Assembly (NCBI GenBank): GCA_031002005.1
Contig: CM061921.1
Coordinates: 127,688,597-127,752,596 of the forward strand
Length of the DNA stretch: 64,000 nt
Direction: 5' to 3'
From: Vandiemenella viatica
Lineage: Eukaryota; Arthropoda; Insecta; Orthoptera; Morabidae
Position 1 is the first letter of the stretch; each line of letters opens with the position of its first letter. Position numbers and translations under genes: made by a program. A model generated the notes under the pieces. The model was not told the origin of the DNA. It searched no databases and saw nothing but the letters and a program-made list of their open reading frames with translations. Shown piece by piece: positions 3,385 through 61,845 of the stretch.

Positions 3385-3611
3385 TGTCTTAAAAGTGTAT
3401 AGTCCAATGATGACCTAAGGAGTCGGGTTCAAATCCATTCGGTCATCTTAATTTTGGTTCTCCTTGGTTTCCCGAAACCACTCCAGGCAAAAGCTCGAAT
3501 GGTTCCCACAAAAGACTACGACTGAATGCATCCCCTATTTCTTATTACCCATCCTCTGCCGCCTGTAGTGAGCATGACGTCGACGAGGAGTAAAGCCTGA
3601 AGGGAAAAAAA
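3385..3611 (+). repeat. Diverged SINE (family A-like)
   Basis: B-box-like gggttcaaatcc at 3424-3435, then the family body: ggttctccttggtttcccgaaaccactccaggc in degraded form, and the end module gtcgacgaggagtaaagcc before a short A run at 3603-3611. The end module matches the 17165 SINE (gtcgacgaggcgtaaagcc). The left end is uncertain. Nothing else is recognised from 3612 to about 4130. Confidence 0.6.
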
Positions 3612-4129
3612 TTCATATACCTACACTCACAAGAATTTTCTGAAACTGCTATCATTGTTTGATTTCCCTGTAGACATTACATTACAACAGTCTCAGCTAT
3701 ATTTGTTTAACAAACGGAGGTATAAGTGTCTCATGTATGTTAAGTATAAATTTATTTGTACAAAACTAGCTGTCAAATTTCTTTAATAGTACCATGTTTT
3801 CAATATTTTGTACTAGTGGATTTTTTCTTAACAAATGCCACTATGGACAGGTCCATATACGGAGTCTTCATGTATACAAATAGCATTCTCTTTTCTAACA
3901 CCATATTGTTCTAATTTACCTAGAACAATCTTATCAACGACACCGTCAAAAACTCGTTGCTAGATTTTAGAAGATTCCTAGGTAATTCTTTGTACATTGA
4001 TACTAATAAGTTGTTTTTAAGGACAATAATTGCAGGCTCTTTCGAAAAATCTTACCTAAAACCAAATTTCACTTTACTGAGTAGTTCATTATTGTGCAAC
4101 TATGCATACACCTTTCTGTAAACTGCTTT

Positions 4130-5050
4130 TCAGAACATTTTGGAGTCCATGATAATATCAAGTTTACTATGGAGATGGAAATCGACAACCACCTTCCGTT
4201 CCTGGATGTATAAATTACAAGAAATGATGATGGCTCCTTGGGCCACCGAGTATACCGAAAACCAACGCATACTAATCGGTACCTCCACGCTAACTCTCAG
4301 CATCATCCAGCGATCAAAAGTGGAATTTCAAAAAATTAACTCTCCGCGCATCCGTGGTATGTGACGAAGCGAGTATGCCGCTGAAAAGAGAAATTTAAAT
4401 GATATATTTCTAGCCAATGGCTGTAGCGTAGCTGTTTGTAATAAAGCCTTGGCATCCCTTGACCGCTCCACTCTGTCTCGCACTGTAGCATTATCGGCGG
4501 AGAACAACAAATCATCTGACAAAGCAATAGCTGTCCTGCCATATATCCAAGGACTGATGGATAAGATTAGTCGGCTGCTTAATAAGAAGAACATCTATCC
4601 CGTATACAAGGCCACTAGGAAATTATCCAGCATCTTTACCAGCGTGAAAGATAGGAGAGAACATTTCCAAACACCAGGAGTATATTAAATTCCTTGCAGT
4701 TGCGGCAAGGTATACTTTGGGAAAACAGGAAGCACAGTTATGGAGATGCTCAATGAGCACTCAGCCATTTGAAAAATAACGACGCAAGCATGTCCGCTGT
4801 AGGTCTACATTCAGCCGATAGTGGCCATTCGATTTTATTTGATAAGAACATTTTTATATCCAGTAAGAGTAAATGGTGGCCTAGCGTGTAAGAGAAGCGT
4901 TAGAAATACAAAAACAGCCGAACAACATGAATGCCGACAAAGGTTTGCAACTTGACCATAATTGGTCATACCTGCTCAGGAAAACCCAAGACGTCGGCCT
5001 CAACCTACCACCTACGCGCTAGCTTCATGTTACTATATAAGGCGATAGCG
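4130..5050 (+). pseudogene. Penelope-like element relic: RT end and GIY-YIG endonuclease
   Basis: Broken frames read, in order, [26 protein letters not shown] and HHPAIKSG, the end of a Penelope-type reverse transcriptase. About 270 bases on, GVY-stop-IPCSCGKVYFGKTGS matches the start of a GIY-YIG nuclease, followed by LNEH. In live elements these lie on one protein: the transcriptase copies element RNA and the GIY-YIG domain nicks the target. Here several stops and frameshifts are visible, so the copy is dead. The 5' part (RT fingers and palm) was not found; the copy is 5'-truncated. Confidence 0.75.
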
Positions 5051-16346: not shown

Positions 16347-16603
16347 ACATATATTCACCGAGCGTGGTGGTGTAACGGCTAGCGTTCTGGCCTCGCATTC
16401 GGGAGGACGGCGGTTCGAATCCCCGTCCGGGCATCCAGATTTGTGTTTTCCATGGTTTCCCAAATCACTCTAGGCAAATGCCGGGATGCTTCCTTCAAAA
16501 GGCCATGGCCCAATTCCTTCCCTTTCCTTGCCCCCCATCCTATCCCGTCGCTAAAGACCTCGCTGTTAGAGAGACGTTAAGCAGATAAAAAAAACATGTA
16601 TTC
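16347..16603 (+). mobile_element. SINE family A, with target-site duplication
   Basis: Body 16357-16593: head accgagcgtggtggtgtaacgg (A box), B box ggttcgaatcc, then the family body gggcatccagatttg, ccatggtttccc, gccgggatgcttcc, ggccatggccc, and an A tail. The duplications are acatatattc (16347-16356) and acatgtattc (16594-16603). The head is tRNA-derived and the body is shared by about ten copies in this window. From 15990 to 16346 nothing else is recognised. Confidence 0.85.
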
Positions 16604-17153: not shown

Positions 17154-17417
17154 TGATAATTAGTACCGAACGTGGTGGGTGAACGGTTAACGTTCTGGCC
17201 TCGCATTCGGGAGAACGTGGGTTCGAATCCTCGTCCGGGCATCCAGATTTGGGTTTTCCATGGTTTCTCCAAATCACTCCTGGCGAATGCCGGGATGCTT
17301 CCTTCAAAAAGGCCATGGCCGAATTCCTTCCCGTTCCTTGCCCCAGTCCCATCCCGCCTCTAATGACCTCGCTGTCGACGAGGCGTAAAGCCCAAGCAAA
17401 AAAAAATGATAATTAGT
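17154..17417 (+). mobile_element. SINE family A, intact copy with perfect 11-bp duplication
   Basis: Body 17165-17406 (242 bp), flanked by perfect TGATAATTAGT copies at 17154-17164 and 17407-17417. The head has gtgggtgaacggttaacg (A box) and gggttcgaatcc (B box). The end module gacctcgctgtcgacgaggcgtaaagccc contains a small hairpin (cctcg...cgagg), followed by an A tail. This is the best-preserved reference copy of the family in the window. Confidence 0.9.
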
Positions 17418-32824: not shown

Positions 32825-33691
32825 TTGAAGTATTTGGGAAAAATTATGTCTGGAAAGTGTGGCGCCTGTCGCAGGAACATGAAGAATGGTGTGGGGTACA
32901 GTGAGTGTAAGAAGGAGTTTCACTGGGAATGCAGTGTAGAGGTCGCATGGGAAATAAATGAAGCTCTCCCATGGTTTTGTCCACTTTGGATTAAGGATGA
33001 AAGGATCAGGGAGATGGATGTATGGCTGAGGGAGAAAGACAAAATGATCAGAGTGTTGTTGGAAAGAGTCAGGGCCCTTGAAGCTGAGACTGTGGAGGCG
33101 AGGCCTATGGTGGAAACGCCTGTGGAGGACGTATCTGTGGGGGCCTCACCTGTGGAGGCTCAGCCTATATTGGCAGATAGATATGGTGGGTATGGAGAAG
33201 AGAGAGATACCGATATTTGGGAGCTGATAACAGGTCGTAGGGGAAAAATGGTAAACAGGAGGAAGAAGCCAAACACTACAGAAATTGTTGGGAAAAATAG
33301 GTTTGAACTTTTACCAGAGTCAGGAGGGGGGAGCCTCATGCAGATGAAGGAGTAGGTAAGGTGCAGCAACCTTTAGGAATAAGGGCGTCAAGGAAAAAAC
33401 CGAAAGAAAAGGGTTCTGCTGCTAGGTAGTAGCCACGGGAGAGGTGTAGGCCCTCTCTTGCAGGATCAGCTTTGCTCAGGTTACCAAGTCACAAGTTTAT
33501 TCAGACCTAGTGCAACATTAGATCAAGAAATAGAGGATGTAGGTTCACTTTTTAGGGGTTTCACCAAAGAGGATAGGATAATGGTAGTGGGAGGTGCGGG
33601 CAACAATATTGATAGAAATGCTAATTATAGTATAGAGAGTGATCTGAAGATAGTGTTTAAGGAGTTACAACACACAAGGTTGAGATCATGA
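32825..33691 (+). pseudogene. LINE ORF1: PHD-like finger, coiled coil, SGNH-like domain
   Basis: Residues 11-60 of the first frame (32825-33355) hold CGACRRNMKNGVGYSEC, FHWEC and PWFCPLW, the Cys/His spacing of a PHD-type zinc finger. A helical EREMDVWLREKDKMIRVLLE-like stretch follows, then Val/Pro/Glu-rich repeats (about 90-115). After two stops (33428-33432) the frame resumes with a GSSHGRGVGPLL block and IMVVGGAGNNID, equivalent to the SGNH blocks I and III of the other LINE's ORF1. The finger probably aids RNA or protein binding; the esterase substrate is unknown. Confidence 0.7.
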
Positions 33692-34049
33692 AAGTCCTAA
33701 GTCGCCATGACCAGCCGCAATTTAACCACGCTGTGATGTGGTAGACCTTGGTAAGTGGGGTTCCACTTGGCATCGCCTACACCTAAATACGAGGGGCAAG
33801 GGAATAGTTTCTGAGTTAGTAGCTAATGCTGTGAGGAACCCCACTTCCAGTGATGACGGGGTGATGTTCCTTTTTTAGGTTAGGGGCTGCTGTTGATGGG
33901 ATAAAAATGCGTAATCAAAGGGATACTAAGAGTAGATCCATAGTTAGAAAAATCGCTAATGCTAAAGAAATAGATGAAGCTTTTGAAACAATAACAAAAA
34001 GGGGGGAGGCAGATCTGAGAAGGCGAATATTAGTGCTGAAAATATCACA

Positions 34050-36550
34050 ATGATTAGAGTGTTACTGGTAAGCTGTAGAAGTATAATGAACAAAGTAATA
34101 GAATAATAGAGATACACGAACCTCAAGTAGTTATAGAGGTAGGGTCCTGGTTAAAAGAAGGAGTATTAGATAATGAGATTTTCTCCGATGGTTACAGAGT
34201 GTACCACAGAGATAGAGGAGCAACTGGGAGGGGGGGGGGGTTAGGGGGATAAATGAATGAAAAATGTGAGGCTCTCGGCGAGAAACTAAATTCATATTCA
34301 GAGTTCAGAAGTAAGCATATAATGATCATTATTTGTGGGGATTTGAACTTACTAGGTGTTAACTGGGTAGGAAATAAGATTCATTACACAAGGAAACAGA
34401 GATTTGCAAATACCTTTTAAGAGAAGGAGGCTTTACACAAGTGGTTGACCAGTAAAGAAGGGGATCAAACATATTGGATATCTTCATAATAAATCCTAAT
34501 GATAACCTTATCAGGGGTCAAGTAATCAAGGAATAAGTGACCACAATGCTGTTCTGGTGGATAAAAGGGGATTCAGTAAACCTGTGGCCAGAATTCAATG
34601 GGGAAACAGATACAATTATAAAAAGGCACAAAAGATATTTCAGGATAATTTTATTAAATGGAAGAATGGCAGAAGTGCTGTGGGGAGGGAGTGGGAAGAA
34701 TTCAAGTAAATAATAAAAAAGGGTGAAGAAATATATATTCCAAAGCAAAGAGAAGTACAGAACATACATACTATATCGGGGAGGTGAGGAGGTTAAACAG
34801 ATTGGTGATACGAGAAAATAACAGAGTGAAGAAAGAGCAAGGCAGTAGGGAATTCTTTAAACAACTAAACAAGGAATTAATAATGGTTAAGAAAATGGGT
34901 AGGGACGAATTTATGAAGAATATAATTTGTGCAGGAGGATCACTGCATGATGCATCTAGAAATTTCTGTGGCTATATCAGGAAACTGAGGGGAAGATAGT
35001 GTATTGTGACGATTATATATAAGTATGGAGAAGAAGTAACTGAGTATTTAAAAAATGGTACAGTAATTAAGTAAATGGTTCAGTGATACTATTAGGGACA
35101 ATAATTCAGGAATGGTGTAGGGGGGGGGGATATATAAGAAAACAAACCTATCTACACAGTTGGAGGTGAGAAGACTTGAAAATTTGGAATTCAATATGAA
35201 GATATCATGAAGGAACTAAAGAATCTAAAAAAAACGTAAAGGGGTTGGTATTGATAATATTACTATGGATGTCTTAAAGATAGTAGGATTTCATATTGTA
35301 CCTTATCTTGAAACATTATTTAAAATGAGTCTGGATATTTGTTGTTTACCAGATGACTCGAAAAGTGCGATAGTATTACCGTTCTATAAAGGAGGGGTGA
35401 CAAATAGGGTCGAAAACTATATGCCAATCAGCTTGACATCAGTGGTAGGTAAATTAATGGAGAAATTAGTATTCCATCAGAAGTGTCTGTGATAAACGTA
35501 ATTGGTTTTCAAGTCGGCAACATGGCCCTAGGCAAGGATATTCATGTGAATCTCAGTTAGTAGGCTATATGAAAGATATTTCTGATGAAATGGATAGGGG
35601 AGACCAAGTTGATAGTATAGCACTAGACCTTTCAAAGGCTTTTTACAGAGTGAGGCATAAAATGGTGTTAAATAGGGAAAAAAACCATTGGAGTTGATCA
35701 AAAGATGATTTGCTGGGTAGAAGAATTCTTAAAAGGTAGAAAGCAAAGAGTTAGGGTAGGAAATGCACTATCAAAAGAAGTAGGAGTGAACATGATAATT
35801 GCACAGGATATTGGAACCATTGCTATTCGTTATTATATTGGATGATTTTGTTAATAGTTTACTGTCAGAAGTTAGCTTGTTTGCAGATGACATAATGTTA
35901 TATAAAAGAATCAAATCGGTAGAAGACTGCAAACAGCTGCTGGTTGGTCTAGATTGGACAAAAAGTTAGGTTAGTCAACATGGGATGAAGATAAATGCAA
36001 AGAAGAGCTAGCTCATTATGTACAGAGATAAAAAGCTAAAGGTTCATTGTGGGGAATGAGCTACTTATTGAAGGCTCGAACTGTAATTACCTCGGCATAA
36101 TATTTGATAGTAGACTTACCTTAGCAGGACACATTGGACAGGTATTGGAGAATGAGTTCCAAATCCTTCACCTATTGGTAAAAGTGATGAGTGGTTGTAC
36201 TAGAGAAGTAAGGCAGATTGGTTATGAAACTTTGGTCAGACCACTGCTTTAGTATTGTGGATTAGTATGGGACCCAAATTTTGGGTTTCAAATACCAGAG
36301 TTGGGAGGGGGGGTGCAGAGAATGGATGCCAGATTTGTCTTTGGATACCACTGCAAAATACAATAGGTAACTAATAAGATAACGGAGCTAGAGTGGCACT
36401 CATTGGAGGATAGAAGGAGGGTGAAGAGAGTCATTGGAGCATACAGGGTAAATATTGGTGATGAGGCATAGAAAGATATTGGTGGGAAAATTAAGAGAGG
36501 TGCTTGGACCATGACCACAAGCTGGAACTTGATTTCAGGCATGAGGGCGT
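34050..36550 (+). pseudogene. LINE ORF2 remains: endonuclease and reverse transcriptase
   Basis: In order: LLVSCRSIMNK, EVGSWLKEG and ICGDLNLLGVNW (endonuclease, 34065-34370); a linker (34784-34999); then PDDSKSAIVLPFYKGG, NYMPISLTSVVGKLMEKLV (35345-35490), IALDLSKAFYRVRHKMV, FADDIMLYKRI (35880-35910), NYLGIIFDSRLTLAGHI and YETLVRPLL (36085-36250). All main RT blocks are represented but spread over at least six frame changes, and the second Asp of motif A reads KAFY instead of KAFD. Confidence 0.75.
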
Positions 36551-37033
36551 TGGAAAATTTTATTTCGTAGGAAAGGCTGTAAGGAATTTAAGAAATGACC
36601 AAGAGAAATGATGAATAATTTGCCAAATACACAAAAATATTTTACAGTAAAAGTTAGAAGAGGGCAAAAGTAAGTGGGAAGAGGAAAGGAGAAAGACGGG
36701 CGTGTAGGGATATTGCCACCGGAGCGTGTGCTCCATCGGATTCTTATCAATTATTATTATTGTTAGCACTGAAAGTTTCGCTATGGAGGGAAAGAATCAG
36801 GGAAGTCAAGCTCGCAGGAGAAAGAAGCAGGAGAATCAATAGCAATTACAATGAACTAGAGAATAAGAGAAAGTCACAATCATTTTACGACTTCAAAAGG
36901 AACCCTTATTTGGAGGCAAGTAAAAATAAAAAAGGCTGATATCTGGAGAAACATTGAAAAAAATGTATGTTACCAAATATAGCAGCCAATGAAATTTACT
37001 ATAAACATCAACTGTAAATGTAGTCATTCAATA

Positions 37034-37610
37034 TACAGGGTGATACAAAAAAAGTACGGCCAAACTTTCAGGAAACATTCCTCACACACAAACAAACAAA
37101 ATATGTTATGTGGACATGTGCCCGGAAACGCTTACTTTCCATGTTAGAGCTCATTTTAGTTTCGTTAGTATATTAGTACGCTCTCCTGACCTCAACCCTC
37201 ATGACTTCCATTTATGGGGGCATTTGAAAGCCCTTGTCTACGCAACCCCGGTACCAAATGTAGAGACTCTTCATGCTCGTATTGTGGACGGCTGTAATAC
37301 AATACGCCATTCTCCAGGGCTGCATCAGCGCATCGGGGATTCCATGCGACGGAGGGTGGATGCATGTATCCTCGCTAACGGAGGACATTTGGAATATTTC
37401 CTGTAACAAAGTGTTTGAAGTCACGCTGGTACGTTCTGTTGCTGTGTGTTTCCATTCCATGTTTAATGTGATTTGAACAGAAGTAATAAAATGAGCTTTA
37501 ACATGGAAATTAAGCGTTTCCGGACACATGTCCACATAACATATTTTCTTTGTTTGTGTGTGAGGAATGTTTCCTGAAAGTTTGGCCGTAACTTTTTGTA
37601 ACACCCTGTA
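37034..37610 (+). mobile_element. mariner-like element with 123-bp inverted repeats
   Basis: The element 37036-37608 begins CAGGGTG and ends CACCCTG, with TA on each side (37034-37035, 37609-37610), the Tc1/mariner duplication. The terminal repeats extend about 123 bp (37036-37158 and 37487-37608) with few mismatches. At 573 bp it is an internally deleted, non-autonomous copy. It interrupts the DUF7869-like relic. Confidence 0.85.
37140..37406 (+). pseudogene. mariner-like transposase C-terminal remnant
   Basis: Reads RSPDLNPHDFHLWGHLK, then VPNVETLHARIV, SMRRRVDACILANGGHLEYFL and stop. SPDLNPxD holds the third catalytic acidic residue (Asp) of Tc1/mariner DDE transposases, and the ANGGHxEYxL end is usual for this subgroup. 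The first two catalytic residues are deleted. The Met-led frame begins within the left inverted repeat (37110), so its first residues are not transposase. Confidence 0.8.
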
Positions 37611-37961
37611 TATAATCTAGAAAAATTTAAATCTTTTTTATGTTTATCCAAAATGTATTGCAAAAAGTGCCTGGATAAAGTGGCTTCACTTCATCACTCT
37701 TGTCTTGGAAGAATACACCAAAGAAGTCGCAATATTTTGTGATTTAGCTGGTGCCCAAAATAAATACTACAACCATCTTCAGCTTCAATCATTATGTAAC
37801 TCCGAATTTAAATGGTGGTTTGAAGAAGATCAAAATTATATTTCCTATGCGTGGCAATTTGCCCCTAGAGTGCAATAAAAATGTTGCAGACACCTGAAGA
37901 TTTCCAAGAAATGGTCAGTAGATGTACAAGGATGGACCAAGCCAGAAACCGGGAAAACCCA

Positions 37962-38022
37962 TGACGTCAAGAAGTGAGCAGCCAATAAGCGTTCAAGGTC
38001 TTATGACGTCACAAGATGGCGG
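37962..38022 (+). promoter_or_regulatory. Promoter-like cluster: CRE, CCAAT, CRE, YY1-like
   Basis: TGACGTCA at 37962-37969 and 38004-38011, gagcagCCAATaag (CCAAT at 37982-37986), and AAGATGGCGG at 38013-38022. The mirror set lies in the right arm at 42181-42241, where the CCAAT motif reads agccaatcag on the minus strand. Tight clustering with conservation in both arms suggests a Pol II promoter directed inward from each end. Function is inferred. Confidence 0.55.
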
Positions 38023-38751
38023 ATCGTTAGTTCATTTGGTGGCCGCTAAGGGGGCAGCACCGGTTGGGCTTGTACATACGTTAGTTCCTTGACCGGCCGC
38101 TAGGGAGCAGCATCTCCCAAGGGCTTAATTTCTTTGGGCGCAGATATTCCACTCCCTTACGAGAGAAAGGTAGCTCGGAATTCCGCCGCCCGGGGCGTGT
38201 TTACACAGGTGCGCTCGCCTGCAACTATTTCCTCAACCAAGGGATATTTCTTTTCTGGAATGCGGACGTCAGACAAGTTTCTACACGACGTGCAGTAGTC
38301 TTAGGCTGTCATGGCGGGGCATGGCTCATTTTGGGCTCGATACGCGGTTGTGAAAGCTACAAATATTTTAAGAAATATTTCCAGGCATAGTTTCATAGTA
38401 TCCTGTTTCCCGATAGATGGCGTGGCATGCTTCATTTCTCATTTAACAAGCTTTTAAGAGAAATATTTCAGGTATTCCTGTCTGCTATTATCGGTATATC
38501 AATGTGACAAGTATTTCGAAACCATGGAGTTATTCCCGACGTTCAGAAATATTAAGGTATTTCCGTTTGCCCAGCGACAAGCAGAGCCAATTATCTATTG
38601 CGAAAGCTCTGTACACAGCAAGGTGCAAATATTTGAGCACAGTAAAATATTTTCTTCGGTTCTGTGTCGTGAAATATACTTGCATTTGATTAAGCGTAAA
38701 TCATTGCAATTTTACTAAAAAAAAAAAATTCCACATTAGCGGATATTAAAA

Positions 38752-38828
38752 ACGACCTCGGTAGTGTTGTGGCTAGAGTGCCGAAGGTCGCCGGTTCGAG
38801 TCCGGCCGCGGTGTTTAAGTGTTTTGTG
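38752..38828 (+). repeat. tRNA-like segment (SINE B-type head) in the left arm
   Basis: acctcggtagtgttgtggctagag gives an A-box-like sequence, and ggtcgccggttcgagtccggc the B box, as in the SINE B head at 2795. It is followed by gtttaagtgttttgtg without a clear SINE body. The same segment occurs inverted at 41390-41466. It is not a functional tRNA: the anticodon arm is missing. Confidence 0.6.
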
Positions 38829-38878
38829 ATATTATTGAAAAAGCCGTTCCAACTTCTCAATTTCCACATAAAAATCAT

Positions 38879-39240
38879 TTAACAGAGAGGGGTGATGTAC
38901 CAGAGAAGCGAAGGACTTGGGTACAAACCCACAGTCAGTCCATTGCTTGTGTGGTGTAGTATGGAGTCCACATTTTTTGTACATCAAATGCAAGATGCAA
39001 AGGAGGGCAGCTAGATTTATCTGTGGAAAATATTCAGTAAGTGACATAATAAAGGAGCTGGCGCTGGGATGTTATTGGAAGATAGGAAGAGTGTTGAGGG
39101 GCTGTAGGTGGCATATAATGCTGTTAGAATGGATATTGGTGGAATAATTCTGAGTGGTGTATGGAGTCTAAGTTGACCATGACCACAATCTCGCACTAGA
39201 CTTTAGGTGATGAGGCCTGAGTGGATAAAATATCTAAACA
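38879..39240 (+). pseudogene. LINE fragment in the foldback centre (ORF2 C-terminus)
   Basis: KMQRRAARFICGKYSVSD and LLEDRKS-like words, with MDIGGI, match the C-terminal region of the 32.8-kb LINE family (36310-36470: VQRMDARFVFGY, SLEDRRRVK). It ends with ttgaccatgaccacaa...gactttagg, the counterpart of 36500-36540. From 39241 to about 40100 nothing is recognised. Confidence 0.6.
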
Positions 39241-40129
39241 CCCACTTTGACCTAACAATTTACGACAGTTCAAGTGTGAACACTATCTTAGGCATAATAG
39301 AACTAGTGTCTGCACCTATGGTAACGTTTTGGATACTTGTCGATGTGTGGGGATCTTCTATGAAAATGTGGGTTATGATGTTTGTTTGATGACCAAGAAA
39401 CTATCAGTTAGGTAAGAGCATTATGATAACTCTAACGTGGTTACTTGAACAAAGCATGCAATTACAAACAAATGTCACACTTGGTCCTGAATCCGAATGT
39501 TGGCGTTAGATGGGAACATTTAAACCGAATGGAGAACTCTCCTGGGTCCTGATTTATTGAAAAATAATTTCCTGGAAAAAGGGAGAATTTTCCTGGAATA
39601 CTGCAGTAGAACCACCTTAAGTAAACATTTTGGTACCTGGCTACTGATTAGGAGAAGACTTTGAATTTTGAATTTTTGGTTTACTTTAACGCACGAACAG
39701 AAGGTAACCCTGTCTGTAACTGATCAGGGGTTGGATTGGGAATCATTGGAAAACAGAAGGTGGTTTGAGGAAGTGCTGTGGGTACGTTGGCGATGAGGCT
39801 AGGGGTGGATCTTAGTGAAAGAATTATGAATAGAATATCAGTAGAAGCTGGCACTGGATTTCTTCTATAAGGGAGTGGGTAAATTTTCTGTATCTCCACC
39901 TTGGTCACAGGCGATGGTCTCAGGCATGTTCTGTGCTTAGCACTGCCTTAACGTGACTCGATTTTTATCACATAGGACAGGCGTACTTCGATTCGACAGG
40001 GGTAAAAGTAGTAAGATTAACAGACGGTATTTCGTTCCTGGAACATAAGTGCTGTGCTGTAAAAATACAGTTAAAGGTGTCAATCACTGATGTGTCACAA
40101 GGGATTGATTGGAATTTTAGACAAAGTGC

Positions 40130-40560
40130 AGCTAAGGACACTCAATTTGTGATTGCTTACGAAAGCATAACAGAATTGATACATAGATTGGTATGGATAG
40201 ACAGACGACAAAGGTTTGACCTGGATGGCAACAATTACGAGTGCGATGAGATATTTTATACCAATGGCAGCAGAGATAAATTAGAGAAATAAGGTGTTCG
40301 TACTGAAGCTTCCATTCCTTGAGTTTAGCCATGGTCAAACTGGAAACTTTGATTTTTCTAGCCTTGGTGTGGGAAAGGCTTTGTTAATCATGTCATAAAT
40401 ATTTTCAAGTGGGCTCTTGTCCAAAGACAGGGTTGAGAAATAGGCTTGAAAAAATTACAGCCTGATTGGTTTGACATCATGTAATCACTTCAGAAATGTC
40501 TGTAGGGAAAGAAACTGGTTTTCAAATCGGCAACTTTGCTTTATTTAAGCGGCTCTCAAT
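40130..40560 (+). pseudogene. Two small LINE fragments in the foldback centre
   Basis: 40150-40260 reads YESITELIHRLVWIDRRQRF, matching the C-terminus of the 12-kb LINE family (YESLTELIHRLGWDGLDDRR). 40380-40555 carries pieces similar to 35400-35545 of the other LINE (NRLEKLQPDWFDIM; aactggttttcaaatcggcaac). They come from two families and are juxtaposed, showing that the centre is a patchwork. Confidence 0.55.
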
Positions 40561-40994
40561 TTATCGAGGTTACACTTACATACATCACTAAACCCCTTCA
40601 ATGCCTCTTTGAGTTCAAAAAGTGTCTGTGTTCTCGGTCTGTTTCATTACACATAATTTAATACATCCTTTAAAATACACGGAATGTAGATGACACTCGT
40701 GAGCTATATTATATTGTTCATAACGAATCCAACATGATGTGAAGAAGTGAGTTTGTTTCCCGTCTCTTCGTCGGTGAATTAATTTTTAATGTCTGCCTGC
40801 TTCGATGAACGGAATTTATGGTTTTCCCTACCTTCGTCGGTGAATATCTGTCGGTTTCAATGAAAGGATTTCACCCATTGATGGGTTTTTGAGGCTACGA
40901 ATTTTGAAAGGAATAACGTATGTGTGGTATTGCTATATTTTATCACAATAATTTCATTTTTTTAAATTCTTTACGTCTCTCTAACAACGTGGTC

Positions 40995-41172
40995 TTTAGA
41001 GACGGGGAAAGGATGGGGGGCAAGGAATGGGAAGGAATTCGGTCATGTCCTTTTGAAGGAAGCATCCCGGTATTCACCTGGAGTGATTTGGGGGGAACCA
41101 TGGAAAACCCAAACCTGGATGCCCGGACGGGGGATTCGAACCGCCGTCCTCCTGAATGCAAGGTCAGAACAA
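40995..41172 (-). repeat. SINE family A, 5'-truncated
   Basis: Complement of the family body and part of the head (ggggattcgaaccgccgtcc B box; ccaaacctggatgcccgg). It stops at ggtcagaac, so the A-box end of the head is missing. It lies in the foldback centre. Confidence 0.75.
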
Positions 41173-41346
41173 TAAATAATTTCATGAAAACAGGTACACA
41201 TAGAATTCTTCCTCTGTTTCATATCTGGAGTTTATGATAGTTTTTTTCCATATCGAACGTTAACGTATTTTAAAGGAAAAATGTATGCTTTTCAACTTAT
41301 TTTTTATTCAATTATAACAAGTCAAGCTGGCGCCATACTCTCTAGG

Positions 41347-42286
41347 TGTGGAAATTGAGGAGTTGGAACGTCTTTTTCAATAATATCACAAAACACTTAA
41401 ACACCGCGGCCGGACTCGAACCGGCGACCTTCGGCACTCTAGCCACAACACTACCGAGGTCGTTTTAATATCCGCTAATGTGGACTTTTTTGTTGTTTTT
41501 AGTAAAATTGCAATGATTTACGCTTAAGTATATTTCACGACACAGAACCGAAGAAAATATTTTACTGTGCTCAAATATTTGCACCTTGCTGTGTACAGAG
41601 CTTTCGCAAGAGATAATGGGCTCTGCTTGTCGCTGGGCAAACGAAAATAATATTTCTGAACGTCGGGAATAACTCCATGGTTTCGAAATACTTGTCACAT
41701 TGATATACTGATAATAACAGACAGGAATACCTGAAATATTTCTCTTAAAAGCTTGTTAAATGGGAAATGAAGCATGCCACGCCATCTATCGGGAAACGGG
41801 ATACTATGCAACTATGCCTGGAAATATTTCTTAAAATATTTGTAGCTTTCACAACCGCGTATCGAGCCCAAAATGAGCCATGCCCCGCCATGACAGCCTA
41901 AGGCCACTGCACGTCGTGGAGAAACTTGTCTGACGTCCACATTCCAGAACAGAAATATCCCTTGGTTGAGGAAGTAGTTGCACGCGAGCGCAACTGTGTA
42001 AACACGCCCCGGGCGGCGGAATTTCCGCGCTAGCTTTCTCTCGTAAGGGAGTGGAATATCTGCGCCCAAAGAAATTAAGCCCTTGGGAGATGCTGCTCCC
42101 TAGCGGCCGGTCAAGGAACTAACGTATGCGCAAGCCCGGCCGGCGCTGCCCCCTTAGCGGCCACCAAATACACTAACGATCCGCCATCTTGTGACGTCAT
42201 ATGACCTTGAACGCTGATTGGCTGCTCACTTCGTGACGTCATGGGTTTTCCCGGTTTCTGGCTTGGTCCATCCTTGTACATCTACT
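41347..42286 (-). repeat. Foldback right arm
   Basis: Inverted copy of 37917-38868 with scattered substitutions and small indels by eye. It contains the mirrored tRNA-like segment (41390-41466) and the mirrored CCAAT/CRE/YY1-like cluster (42181-42241). Confidence 0.8.
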
Positions 42287-42540
42287 ATGGTCAAAGCATC
42301 GAGATGTAAACCATTCACTTTCACTGTGGTTAGCGTTACCCAAGAAATGGTGTTGGACTGGACTCAATGTACACTTCGAAAATGTCCCTTCAAAAAGTAG
42401 CCCGTTAAAGAAATACCTACTACATCTGCAACGTACAACAGAGGAATAATAACGGGCACCACGAAATGGTCAACCATCGGAGGACGGCCTATTTAAACTT
42501 TCCCCTCCAGCTTAAAATGGTATGTTAAACATCAGATGTA

Positions 42541-44359: not shown

Positions 44360-44390
<31 letters not shown>

Positions 44391-44624
44391 CGCCTCGTCG
44401 ACGTTGAGGTCATTGGAGGCGGGAATGGACTGGGCGCTAGGAACGAGAAGGAATTCGGCCATGGCCATTTTAATGGAAGCATCCTGACATTCGCCTGGAG
44501 AGATTTGGGAAAACCATGGAAAACCCAAACCTTGATGCCCGGACGGGGATTCGAACCGGGGTCCTCCCGAATGCAAGGCCATAGCGGTAAATGCTCACCC
44601 ACCACGCTCGGTTTAACAGCTGGA
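44350..44624 (-). mobile_element. SINE family A, full length with 13-bp duplication
   Basis: Body 44363-44611 on the minus strand with a long tail (poly-T on plus, about 44363-44389) and the head ending in ccaccacgctcgg. Duplications are tttaacagcagga (44350-44362) and tttaacagctgga (44612-44624). It inserted into repeat F, whose units continue on both sides. Confidence 0.85.
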
Positions 44625-45514: not shown

Positions 45515-46195
45515 TAATTTATTTTCACATGATTAAGAAGATTTAATCTTTCTGCAGTAATTTTCTTTCGAGAATCTCGCTTCCCAGCCTTCATGTGTCC
45601 AGTTAGAGCATCACACACTTAAACCAATCTTCATCTAGTTTTGTTTTACTGTAGTTCTCGTTACACCAGTCACTTTCATAAAGGTTATCGTCGCAACTTT
45701 TTTATTGCTTTACGCCTCGCCGATGGCTAAGGTCATTACAGGCGGGACAAGGTACGGTATGGGCAGGAATTCGGCCATGGCCTTTTTGAAGGATGCATCC
45801 TGGCATTCGCCTGCAGTGATTTGGGGAAACTATGGAAAACCCAAATCTGGATGCCCAAAAGGGGATTCGAACCCACGTCCTCCCGAATGCGAGGCCAGAA
45901 CATTAACCGTTCACCCATGACGCTCGGTCGTTTCAAATTGTATTAATATCGATATTTTCAGATTCTGAGGACGTAAGTTCTTTCTTCTTTTCCGTTCTCT
46001 TCCTTTTATTAATCTCCCTTTAACTTCTTTTTCTTCCTCCCTGTCTTCTCTTCCTCCCTGACTTTCTTCTTTTCTTACATTTCTTTCTTCTTTCTTCTAT
46101 TTTGCTGCAGCATTAACTCCCATTTCCTTATTCTCAACAGCTTTGACTGCATTTTTCAAACTGTCTTCAGACCATTCTCCTTCCCCCGACGTGCC
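45515..46195 (-). pseudogene. pogo-like transposase remnants (N-terminal helix-turn-helix and C-terminal Cys region)
   Basis: Minus strand from 46190: GTSGEGEWSEDSLKNAV, KAVENKEMGVNAAAK, the psq/CENP-B-type DNA-binding start of pogo-like transposases. A long Lys/Arg/Glu-rich stretch follows (46115-45975, the polypurine side of a plus-strand polypyrimidine tract). Beyond the SINE, 45690-45520 reads DDNLYESDWCNENY and LDEDWFKCV, resembling the zinc-binding tail of insect members. The DDE domain between is missing. Confidence 0.55.
45698..45928 (-). mobile_element. SINE family A inside the pogo-like element
   Basis: Complement of the family: tail ctttacgcctcgccgatgg, body ccatggcctttttgaagg, B box ggggattcgaaccc, head ccgttcaccc..gacgctcgg. 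The flanks cgtcgcaac and cgtttcaaa are at best a worn target duplication. Confidence 0.8.
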
Positions 46196-47389: not shown

Positions 47390-48810
47390 GTCTCATTCAT
47401 CCGTTGCATCAGTAACAGCTTCCTCGAGGTCGAAGAACTCTTCCTTTCCTTCAACTCCTTCATTTCAGGAACGTTTTAACGAGACAGGCCAGAGCAATTT
47501 TTCAAGCAGCTGAACAGTGCAGTCCTGATTAGCGACAGCTGAAAGAGTACAAGGTTTCTTGCAGGAACATGATACAACCTTGGGAGTAAACTCAGGTGAA
47601 GCGTCTTTTTTTATGGCTTTACGCCATGTCGACGTCGAGATCATTAGAGTCACGATGGTACTGGGGCTAATGAACGGGAAGGATTTCGGCCAAGGCATTT
47701 TGATTGAAGGATCCCGGCATTCGGCTGGAATGATTTGGGGAAACCGTGGAAAACCCAAATCTGGATGCCCGGACGGGGATTCCAACCGGCGTCCTCCTGA
47801 ATCCGTTTATTATTGTAACTGGAATAAGACTGGACAAGCCTTTCCTTCATCCCCATGACAATTGGTACGTTTATCGACCCAACCATCCTTTAGTTGGTAG
47901 TACGTGCATATTGAGTGAAGCGTTGCCGCATCTGATTTTGGTGGCAACCGTATTAGCCTGAATGCATTTCTTGCGCAGAGTTCTTAAACATTTGGTATCT
48001 GATCCTTCCAATGTTCCACAAGCAATTCTTCCGTACCGTTCTAAGATGGGCTGTTCCCCTGTGTGTTCTACAGATTCTAGTCTCTGGAATTTAGGAGTTC
48101 TGAAACGTTAGCATGCATGTTACCTTCAGATATGGTTGGTACTGAATGAGGCAGCATGATTTTTCTTTCCCATAGCCGAAATATGCAGATATTGTATCAC
48201 ATCCAGTAAATCCATGGGTGAAGAGGATATGTGTAGATTCAAACTCGTAAGTGTTACCGAGGCCATTAGCAAAATGAGAAAGCAAATATACTCACTTATA
48301 ATTATCACACTGTCGGATTTTGCTGCTTGGGAAATAGCTGCGTCAACGATCAATCCACCTGCATCTTGTTTTTTTCTGTTGATCTTTGATGCCTCCTTTT
48401 TCAGTGTTTGCATTCGTATTACACGGTTCTTGCTGCTCCCATTCACTGCGTCACTGCAGCGCTTGTTTCCTCACTGAAAATGATGTCTACTGAAGTATCT
48501 GATGTTTTCAAACTACAAAACATTTCAGATGACTGTATTTCTCTTTGCGCAGCATCACTTCGGTATCCGTCAAACATAACTCTAATGTCGGATCTATAGT
48601 TCGTTGTTAAATAGGCTACATATTTTCCACAGAAGCAGCCAAGGTCTTTATTGCGATGCCACAAAAGCTTACGCAGGAAGCATAATCCGCCCATAAAATA
48701 ACTTTTTATGTAGTGTGTTGCAACTTCAAGAGATTTAAATGCTTCATATAGAGACAATTTTGTTCCCTTGAAGAACGGAAGAAATTCAAATAGAAAACAT
48801 TGTTTCAATC
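47390..48810 (-). pseudogene. Relic of an uncharacterised repeat-associated gene (TGCDT motif)
   Basis: Minus strand from 48808: AYLTTNYRSDIRVMFDGYRS, DIIFSEETSAAVTQ; after a frameshift, QDAGGLIVDAAISQAAKSDS and, in another frame, ILFTHGFTGCDTISAYFGYGK (about 48230-48165). Then comes LPTKGWLG (near 47890) and, beyond an inserted SINE, a Cys-rich end CSCKKPCTL (47575-47545) with an acidic tail. I recall this order from a multi-copy protein family in insects and cnidarians (FDGY, DAD.LIV, TGCDTTSA, Cys-rich end), of unknown function. Multiple frameshifts show it is dead. It lies between the two arms of the inverted duplication. Confidence 0.6.
47606..47805 (-). repeat. SINE family A, 5'-truncated, inside the TGCDT relic
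   Basis: Complement of the family from the tail (tggctttacgccatgtcgacg) to the B box (ggggattccaaccggcgtcc), truncated after ctcctgaat. The relic's frame lies on both sides, so the SINE is the later event. Confidence 0.75.
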
Positions 48811-59372: not shown

Positions 59373-61845
59373 CTACCCTAGTTCATAAAATTGCACACCA
59401 GATACTATATTGATTCGCTTGATAAAATTTTTGGTTCGTTGTTTTATAAAATCATTAGTGTAAGCGACATTTAATTCTCTGTGTAGGTGACAATTACGTA
59501 CATACCATGCTGCCGCCACTGCTATCCGGACCGAGCGTGGTGGTGTAACGGCTAGCGTTCTGGCCTCGCATTTGGGAGGACGGCGGTTCGAATCCCCGTC
59601 CGGGCATCCAGATTTTGGTTTTCCATGGTTTCCCCGAATCACTCCAGGTAAATTCCGGGATGCTTCCTTCAAAAGGCCATGGCCGAATTCCTTCCCATTC
59701 CTTGCCCCCCATCCTTTCCCGTCTCTAAAGACCTAGTTGTTATAGGAGACGTTAAGCAGTTGAAAAAAAAAACTGCTAACCGGGATACTTTGTTTTGAAA
59801 TAATTGTACTCTAAGTAACTTGCTACGATTAAAATTGGTCATCCATATGTGATTAGCGGTCGTAATATCTTCTTGTATGTTAATAGGCAGCACTCTGTTT
59901 TTAATTATAATTTTTTATTTAATATTTGGTACAATTTGTGTAATCTGGCAAAGGCTTCGTTTAGTTTATTGCTGATATGTATGTTCCACGTTATCCGTCT
60001 GTGAAGGTTGACTAAAAGGTATTTAATTAATTGATTACGTGGATTACATGTTTTGTTATTTCCGATGGTGTTTTCTCAGGATGGTTTTGTGGATGTCTTA
60101 GTGAAAACATTTCTGTTTAACATTTTCTGGGGTTTAAATGTATACGCCAGTGATTCAGCCATTCGGTTAATCGCGTGATTGCTTCCTGGAGGCTATTGCT
60201 GTGCGATATGTATGTCATTGGGTGAAGTATATATGACAGTGTCATCAGCGTATATTGGAGTCGAGGTATTTGTAAGAGTTGGTATATCCGACGTGTATAT
60301 GTTGAATAATGTAGGCCCTAATACAGACCCCTGTGGAACTCCTGCTATTACTGGTCGCGTTTTGGCTATTTTTGTGCTCACTCTTAAGTTGAAATTTCTA
60401 TTCTGTAGAATGATTTCTAGGATTTTATACAAATATAGAGGCCTTACTGTATTTTTGTTTATATAGCAATCAGGTGTGCCATACATTGTCAAATGCCTAG
60501 GCAACAACAATGAAAGCTGCCGGAGTGTGATATTTAATGTCTTCAAACAGGCGTAGTATATGGTGTGAGGTTAAGTTCATCGGGCGAAAGCAAACTCGTG
60601 AGGCGGGATAGTTCCCACAGCATCGAGGAAGGATATTAGTCGCTTCCATTACTGTCTTTCCTAGTAGTTTCGATAAAGTGAAAAGTCTGCTTATCGGTCT
60701 ATAGCCAGAGGGCAGGGATGCTGGGTTGTTATATTTATATAATCTGTGATATTAACATGTTTACATTCCCTTGGGAAATATCCGGCGCAGGGAATGCTGA
60801 TGAAAAATACAGTGAGATATGCAACTGCCTTATGGGGTAATGACATCAATGCTATATTGGGTATATTATTGTGGCTTGGGGATTTTCTTACGGGGAAATT
60901 CTTAAATTTTTGTCGCAGTTCTCCCGGAGCAGTGAATTTGATATAATTCTTTGTGTCAATAGTCATATGCTGAATAGATTCATCGAATGTTGTGTTAAAC
61001 TCATAATTTATTCTTTGATTCAATTTGAAGGTGATTTCAAAGTTATCTGCTAAGGTTTCGCATTTCTCTGAGTCACTGGATATGTAAGTATTGTTCCATT
61101 TTAAGAGTGGTAAGATTGTTGGTTCTCTGAGAATTCTTTTTATGGTTCTACATAGAGCCCTATCACCAGGTTCCATTTCTGATAGATACCTTTGGTATGT
61201 TTCATAACGAAACAAGTCAAGTTCTGTTTTGACCTGTCTAACTAATTGCTTTAGGAGTCAGAATTAGTGTGGGAGACGCTGCCTTCGCCGCTGTCTGCGA
61301 GTTTGATATTTATAGTTAATTAGATCCATGATTCTTTGTGATATTACTTCTTGGAGGATATAAACGATCTATTTCTAGATTTCCTGGCGGATAGTTCTAT
61401 TTGCATGGTGAATTCCAGATGGTAGATGTCATTCACCTTCATCATTGCTGTCTTCAGTGCCTTGCCTAAAGAATGGTTATAATATTAGATTAAGGTTAAA
61501 TTTGAATAAATTCCGGTTTACTTGCTCATATGGTATCTATAAGTGTTTGTTCTAATGTTTGGGGGGTTGTGAAAATTTTCTAACACTGGGAAGTGGTCTG
61601 AATCTAATTCAGCTTCCATAAATAGTGGTAATGTCATTTTTTTCGTGGGGAATGTGAAGTATATCAGGGGCATCATTTCGATTATTAAATAAAAAGGTTG
61701 ACCTGTGTGGTGCGAAAATGTGAAGGTTACCTGTAATGTCGAGCAGTTTCCTACCTTTTCGTGTTGTTGTTCTGCATTCCCAGGCTTGGTGTTTGTTATT
61801 CAGATACCCCATTAGCAGAATAAATTGATTTTGGAATGGGCCGCA
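59373..61845 (-). pseudogene. jockey-clade LINE ORF2 relic, 5'-truncated
   Basis: Minus strand from 61845: MGYLNNKHQAWECRTTTRKG (endonuclease GDxNAKHxxW region), LHIFAPHRSTFLFNN and APDILHI. Then ETYQRYLSEMEPGDRALCR and FPVRKSPSHNNIPNIAL (61215-60691), TRPVIAGVPQGSVLGPTLFN, YTSDIP and YADDTVIY (60400-60230). Last, VQLFQNKVSRL (59850) and, beyond an inserted SINE, YVRNCHLHRELNVAY and FIKRINIV to the stop at 59384. The block order and the AGVPQGSVLGPTLYNIYTSDIP-type motif are typical of jockey. YADD is intact but frameshifts occur between blocks and the first endonuclease motifs are missing. Confidence 0.8.
59518..59783 (+). mobile_element. SINE family A inside the jockey ORF2, with 12-bp duplication
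   Basis: Body 59530-59771, duplications actgctatccgg (59518-59529) and actgctaaccgg (59772-59783). Head accgagcgtggtggtgtaacgg, B box ggttcgaatcc, standard body and A tail. It is very close to the 16357 copy, including the shortened end (gacgttaagcag), so the two form a subfamily distinct from 17165. Confidence 0.88.

Follow-up and report, generated by a model that had tools for sequence, protein, structure and literature searches.

A 64,000-nt stretch of the genome of the morabid insect Vandiemenella viatica (assembly GCA_031002005.1, contig CM061921.1, here C8, forward-strand positions 127,688,597 to 127,752,596), termed the window, contains at 37911..42292 a 4.4-kb element with long inverted arms that on balance is probably a decayed, non-autonomous member of the Polinton/Maverick group of virus-like, self-synthesizing mobile elements, shaped as a snap-back hairpin. 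Numbered inward from the right terminus (segment E), the element reads as E1-940 forward followed by E3421-1 inverted, joined directly with a 3-nt overlap (ACA). The inverted arms described in a first-pass annotation of the window were real, with 94.6% identity in an end-to-end alignment of 952 and 940 nt, and the AGTAGATGTACAAGG outer ends and the ATGGTC motifs that flank them on both sides were confirmed in the sequence. Both outer ends start with AGTAGATGTACAAGGATGGACCAAGCCAGA, and the terminal hexamer is AGTAGA at each, which differs from (AGT)2 at one of six positions. Within the element, all stop-to-stop frames are shorter than 120 aa. Removal of one ATGGTC copy joins the flanks into a continuous frame (...TPEDFQEMVKASRCKPFTFTVVSVTQEMVLDWTQCTLRKCPFKK) as the annotation had noted; this relic is short, has no Pfam match at E values up to 1, and lends weak support to insertion. 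Misassembly, or a pair of independent insertions facing opposite ways, is exceedingly improbable given the 5% difference between the arms, the exact duplication and the presence of the family at many loci; segment E also is continuous across the centre.

The arm was compared with the 3.72-Gb genome, which yielded at least 57 matching stretches (from the best 40 of 4084 candidates), many of them arranged as inverted pairs 3-11 kb apart. The outer 32 nt matched the genome at 17 places with three or fewer mismatches and at none with the reversed control. The comparison of copies genome-wide that had been proposed for defining the termini and the duplication length was made with 12 located copies, namely the window copy, nine other arm pairs, a PolB-bearing palindrome on contig C6 and a PolB-bearing element on C8. 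Copy L019 was omitted from the duplication count as its inverted repeat overruns the element and its ends were not located. The comparison gave AGTAG-type ends and a 6-bp duplication that was exact in seven of the 12 copies, with five of six positions matching in three, four in one and three in one. Among 132 mismatched pairs drawn across copies none matched at all six positions and two matched at five, and the corresponding values were none and one for 36 pairs taken 6, 12 or 18 nt farther out. The 24 ends comprised 22 with AGTAG, one with AGTTG and one with GGTAG, these being the only three motifs that the script admitted near arm ends, and AGTAGT was present at both ends in five of the 12 copies.

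Searches with the protein-primed PolB profile PF03175 produced at least 91 matches in the genome (best 91 of 1591 candidates), many of which fall within long open frames; 14 control genomes gave no match. The element at C8:128351335-128356867 is 5533 bp long, is bordered by GTAGCT on both sides, and has terminal inverted repeats (TIRs) of ~400 nt with PF03175 inside. Similarity between its TIR and the window arm covers the outer ~20 nt, arm nt 87-143 (91-93%) and arm nt 163-235 (86%). This apparent homology, short yet in register at both ends, directly ties the arm to a PolB-bearing element. An autonomous relative with the same outer end had been envisaged in the first-pass annotation: the 5.5-kb element supplies a relative, though not necessarily an autonomous one, in which the PolB reading is interrupted by breakage of the gene. 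According to PMC8097293, vertebrate Mavericks have ends of (AGT)2//(ACT)2 or (AG)3//(CT)3, 6-bp target duplications and TIRs of 46-1447 bp, and intact examples are gene-bearing and 12.7-24.6 kb in length. The window element is alike in its AGT-type termini, its 6-bp duplication, its long TIRs of 952 and 940 nt which fall inside that range, and the PolB in a relative with similar ends. It is unlike them in being 4.4 kb, gene-less and hairpin-shaped, and in ending with AGTAGA rather than (AGT)2. As no Polinton gene was found in it, membership rests on the ends, the duplication and the partial TIR homology, from which the element very probably belongs to Polinton/Maverick. Thus, the ends that previously could be assigned to no nameable superfamily fit this group. 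PolB was sought within ~9-10 kb beside the single arms L022, L023 and L024 and none was detected at an E value of 1e-5 with one PolB query; L022 instead holds an open frame that by eye is reverse transcriptase-like.

The Foldback (FB) elements of Drosophila possess long inverted arms composed of short tandem direct repeats, a single-copy central part and a 9-bp duplication. The description of the window element as Foldback-like holds for its anatomy, which also combines long inverted arms with a single-copy centre, and fails for the family: the duplication is 6 bp, the ends are of Polinton type, and the arms contain no tandem array, the sole direct repeat being a two-copy repeat of 27 nt at 78%. 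A cut-and-paste DNA transposon of another superfamily, unrelated to Polintons, that makes 6-bp duplications and has grown long arms would accommodate the fold-back shape and the lack of a Polinton gene inside, and 6-bp duplications occur in other DNA transposon groups too. This alternative is very improbable in view of the terminal and subterminal similarity to a PolB element with like ends and its own 6-bp duplication, and of an end motif that is near to the Maverick motif published in PMC8097293.

The centre of the element had been viewed as a patchwork of two families of long interspersed nuclear element (LINE) and a short interspersed nuclear element (SINE). LINE-like peptides and a SINE are present, with the LINE-like similarity being at the peptide level in the frames specified in Table 1. 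The idea of a patchwork private to the window copy was ruled out: pieces A, X and B recur beside the arm in identical order in other copies, and beyond E3421 longer copies share ~2.9 kb more inward sequence. As the centre extends the right arm inward and its order is kept in other copies, the window element can be described as a single Polinton-type end of 3.4 kb to which its outer 0.95 kb has been added as an inverted copy. The colinearity of the centre in other copies also implies that the LINE-like scraps and the SINE predate the separation of those copies. Further SINE copies lie in the window at 16384-16593, 17192-17390, 44374-44592, 45756-45906, 47663-47802 and 59557-59768, with a weak seventh additional copy at 3426-3555. 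The region 32840-36600 looks by eye like a decayed LINE, parts of which the centre peptides resemble. A single-armed copy (L035/L058, from C7729:352409525 on) is exactly without piece X and extends past E3421; its shared sequence stops at a GA-repeat, and a matching terminus was not found there. The outermost ~160 nt (E 1-160) diverge from the window copy in several copies which are similar from E163 onward.

The position at which the stem gives way to the loop varied among copies. Loops composed purely of E were found in the window copy (stem end at E940, loop start at E3421), L015 (1493 and 2644), L018 (1264 and 2053) and L021 (901 and 2442). Loops that pass E3421 were found in L017 (stem to ~2103), L009L010 (2968), L020 (833) and L028 (932). 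Copies L011L012, L013L014 and L019 are near-symmetric. The stem-loop junctions showed overlaps of 0-3 nt or a 2-nt insert. A tree of arms was built over E163-940 for 11 elements, with L021 included from E396 only; L013L014 (C3843) resembles L025 (C4537:199.4M), and L013L014 alone was used. The left and right arms were sisters in all 11 elements (support 0.81-1.00), and in 10 of the 11, with L028 the exception, the arms of one element were more alike than either was to any other arm. The sister relationship indicates that the arms arose, or were homogenised, after the elements had separated. Copies L009L010 and L024 have a common junction which was dropped as support for a mobile stem-loop: the left flank also is common at 94.5%, and as flanks are shared along with the junction the pair represents a segmental duplication.

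An ordinary non-autonomous Polinton with an ancestral TIR of ~940 nt, in which short copies arose by internal deletion and longer stems by later extension, would require no snap-back for the window copy. Four of the eight asymmetric stems end close together (833, 901, 932 and 940), which weighs against a snap-back origin and could follow from such a conventional TIR with internal deletions, and Maverick TIRs are as long as 1447 bp in PMC8097293. This account is quite unlikely as the four other asymmetric stems measure 1264-2968 nt, the near-symmetric copies pair well past E3421, and the loci examined included no parent that combines a 940-nt TIR with two different interiors.

Palindromes that carry PolB were encountered in the same genome. 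Among the PF03175 matches listed, 13 neighbouring pairs lie within 50 kb of each other, and all 13 are convergent with none tandem or divergent. The C6 pair forms a 14.6-kb palindrome with 98.8% self-identity and a loop of ~33 nt; it ends in AGTAGT and is flanked by AATAAC on either side. Four further pair centres were examined and each was palindromic through the centre. The palindrome at C4537:228.63M has TATAGT on both sides. It and the palindrome at C6490:180.03M have the same ends and the same centre, including a common left-right asymmetry, and the similarity halts at the terminus with unrelated flanks, as judged over 87 and 64 nt of the C4537 flanks. The presence of the same palindrome at two loci with unrelated flanks means that it was palindromic before it reached them. 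Thus, the conclusion that palindromes of the PolB class predate insertion at these loci is supported. The palindrome on C8192, one of the 13 pairs, was dropped as independent evidence as its flanks match those of the C6 copy, of which it is probably a haplotig; the C8746 centre is 99.2% like that of C4537 and may be a haplotig that repeats it. Termini were not located for the palindrome at C7729:123.96M. The 1308-aa PolB frame of the C6 palindrome (L050:1894-5817) matches Endonuclease_7 (PF02945) at 23.9 bits against a cut-off of 23.6, and the match sits directly before the polymerase domain.

The hairpin could have arisen if a protein-primed polymerase, while it copied a displaced linear strand, doubled back on the strand it had just made, a step that would need at most a few bases of homology. 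The product would be a molecule ordered terminus, arm, loop, inverted arm, terminus, with an element end at both ends, and Polinton integrase supplied in trans might then insert it by a 6-bp staggered cut. As both ends would be the recognised terminus, such hairpins would have no need of coding capacity and could behave as defective genomes that parasitise full Polintons. For the window copy we infer, with modest confidence, that the snap-back preceded insertion.

A palindromic or ordinary Polinton derivative instead may have inserted and then been rearranged within the chromosome, where uneven loss of the centre or an inverted copy of one arm made in place would leave a 0.95-kb stem and a single-copy loop. 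Several observations weigh against a snap-back origin, and a number of these favour rearrangement. Loss of the centre after insertion yields the identical layout, near-symmetric palindromes exist in the same family, and the short overlaps and 2-nt insert at the junctions resemble end joining. The inverted repeat of L021 overruns the terminus by ~340 nt (L021:184-522 and 3904-4300), with a second partial terminus (arm 1-65) at 4236-4300 whose AGTAG end lies at 4300, and the repeat of L019 extends ~230 nt beyond the usual start. Both palindromes take in neighbouring DNA as an intrachromosomal inverted duplication could make, which argues against one mechanism having produced every copy; L021 possibly is an inverted duplication that includes adjacent DNA, and its 5/6 target duplication is doubtful for the same anatomical reasons. 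The arms of L028 are 91.6% alike and match an arm elsewhere at up to 94.7%. The duplications are imperfect in L011L012 (4/6) and L013L014 (3/6), and by eye also in the palindromes on C6490 (4/6) and C1655 (2/6), and follow no tidy rule. Neither the window copy nor, with one PolB query, its non-coding relatives yielded a Polinton gene. Nevertheless, rearrangement after insertion would require eight copies each to have undergone its own event while keeping both termini intact, and at least one PolB palindrome predates its arrival at two loci. Rearrangement therefore is considered unlikely for the window copy, albeit the foremost of the alternatives, and the snap-back hairpin is the preferred reading.

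Copy-back or snap-back defective viral genomes consist of one genome end with an inverted copy of its tip, the stem and loop being variable. The replication cycle of Polintons is, to our knowledge, inferred rather than observed. In 1992 Vierula and Bertrand reportedly described a hairpin-forming deletion derivative of the linear plasmid kalilo. The kalilo plasmid has a protein-primed polymerase according to PMC11071308. The window copy is like the defective genomes in comprising one end segment and an inverted copy of the tip with a direct junction, whereas the products of its family, unlike those genomes and the kalilo derivative, are fixed in the chromosomes, in several cases with flanking 6-bp duplications. 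The open-licence literature, represented mostly by titles and the starts of abstracts and with the original Polinton and Maverick papers outside it, yielded no account of palindromic Polintons, which does not prove that none exists. Passages from PMC2836005, PMC8097293, PMC6431247, PMC11071308, PMC12721341 and PMC8504770 do not describe them either, and the word stem palindrom- has no occurrence in PMC6431247, PMC11071308 or PMC12721341.

The features of the element are collected in Table 1. The tRNA-like stretch corresponds to an Rfam tmRNA match of 15 bits against a cut-off of 47 which is repeated at 41408-41461 on the reverse strand. A tRNA gene in the arm was unsupported, as ARAGORN calls no tRNA and the Rfam score is below the cut-off. 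About 300 bp to the left of the element, a short element at 37040-37615 is bounded by inverted CAGGGTG... ends and includes a fragment resembling a transposase (SPDLNPHDFHLWGHLK); from a motif recognised by eye, it looks like a mariner/Tc1-type remnant.

Table 1. Coordinates of the hairpin-shaped element and its parts in the window
Feature	Position	Strand	Length or basis
Target duplication ATGGTC, left copy	37911..37916	+	Sequence inspection
Left arm, AGTAGATGTACAAGG terminus facing out; inverted copy of E 1-940	37917..38868	+	952 nt
tRNA-like stretch at inner end of arm, weak, possibly the head of a SINE	38754..38807	+	Rfam match below cut-off
Fold-back junction, 3-nt overlap ACA common to left-arm end (E940) and start of inverted segment (E3421)	38866..38868	.	
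Segment E, single Polinton-type end, inward from right terminus as arm, B, X, A	38866..42286	-	3421 nt; colinear in other family copies
Piece A of E, part of hairpin loop; LINE-like scrap in frame 38896-39144	38866..39573	-	
Piece X of E; includes the greater part of a SINE and LINE-like remnants (frames 39957-40289 and 40450-40545)	39574..41145	-	
SINE copy inside element	40957..41170	.	Also at six other places in window
Piece B of E, adjoining right arm	41146..41346	-	
Right arm, terminus facing out	41347..42286	-	940 nt
Target duplication ATGGTC, right copy	42287..42292	+	Sequence inspection

Tentatively, the genome of V. viatica may preserve a chromosomal record of Polinton snap-back, in which hairpin or palindromic half-genomes, with or without PolB in each arm, were accepted by the integrase and some breed true as palindromes, thereby constituting gene-less Polinton satellites. 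If so, hairpins and palindromes integrated between exact duplications would stand as fossil traces of a linear intermediate that primes itself and inserts by its ends, and would connect Polintons with the defective genomes of other protein-primed replicons. In large genomes, inverted repeats that are long, end in AGTAG and sit between 6-bp duplications could then be assigned to Polintons instead of being called foldback or going unnamed.

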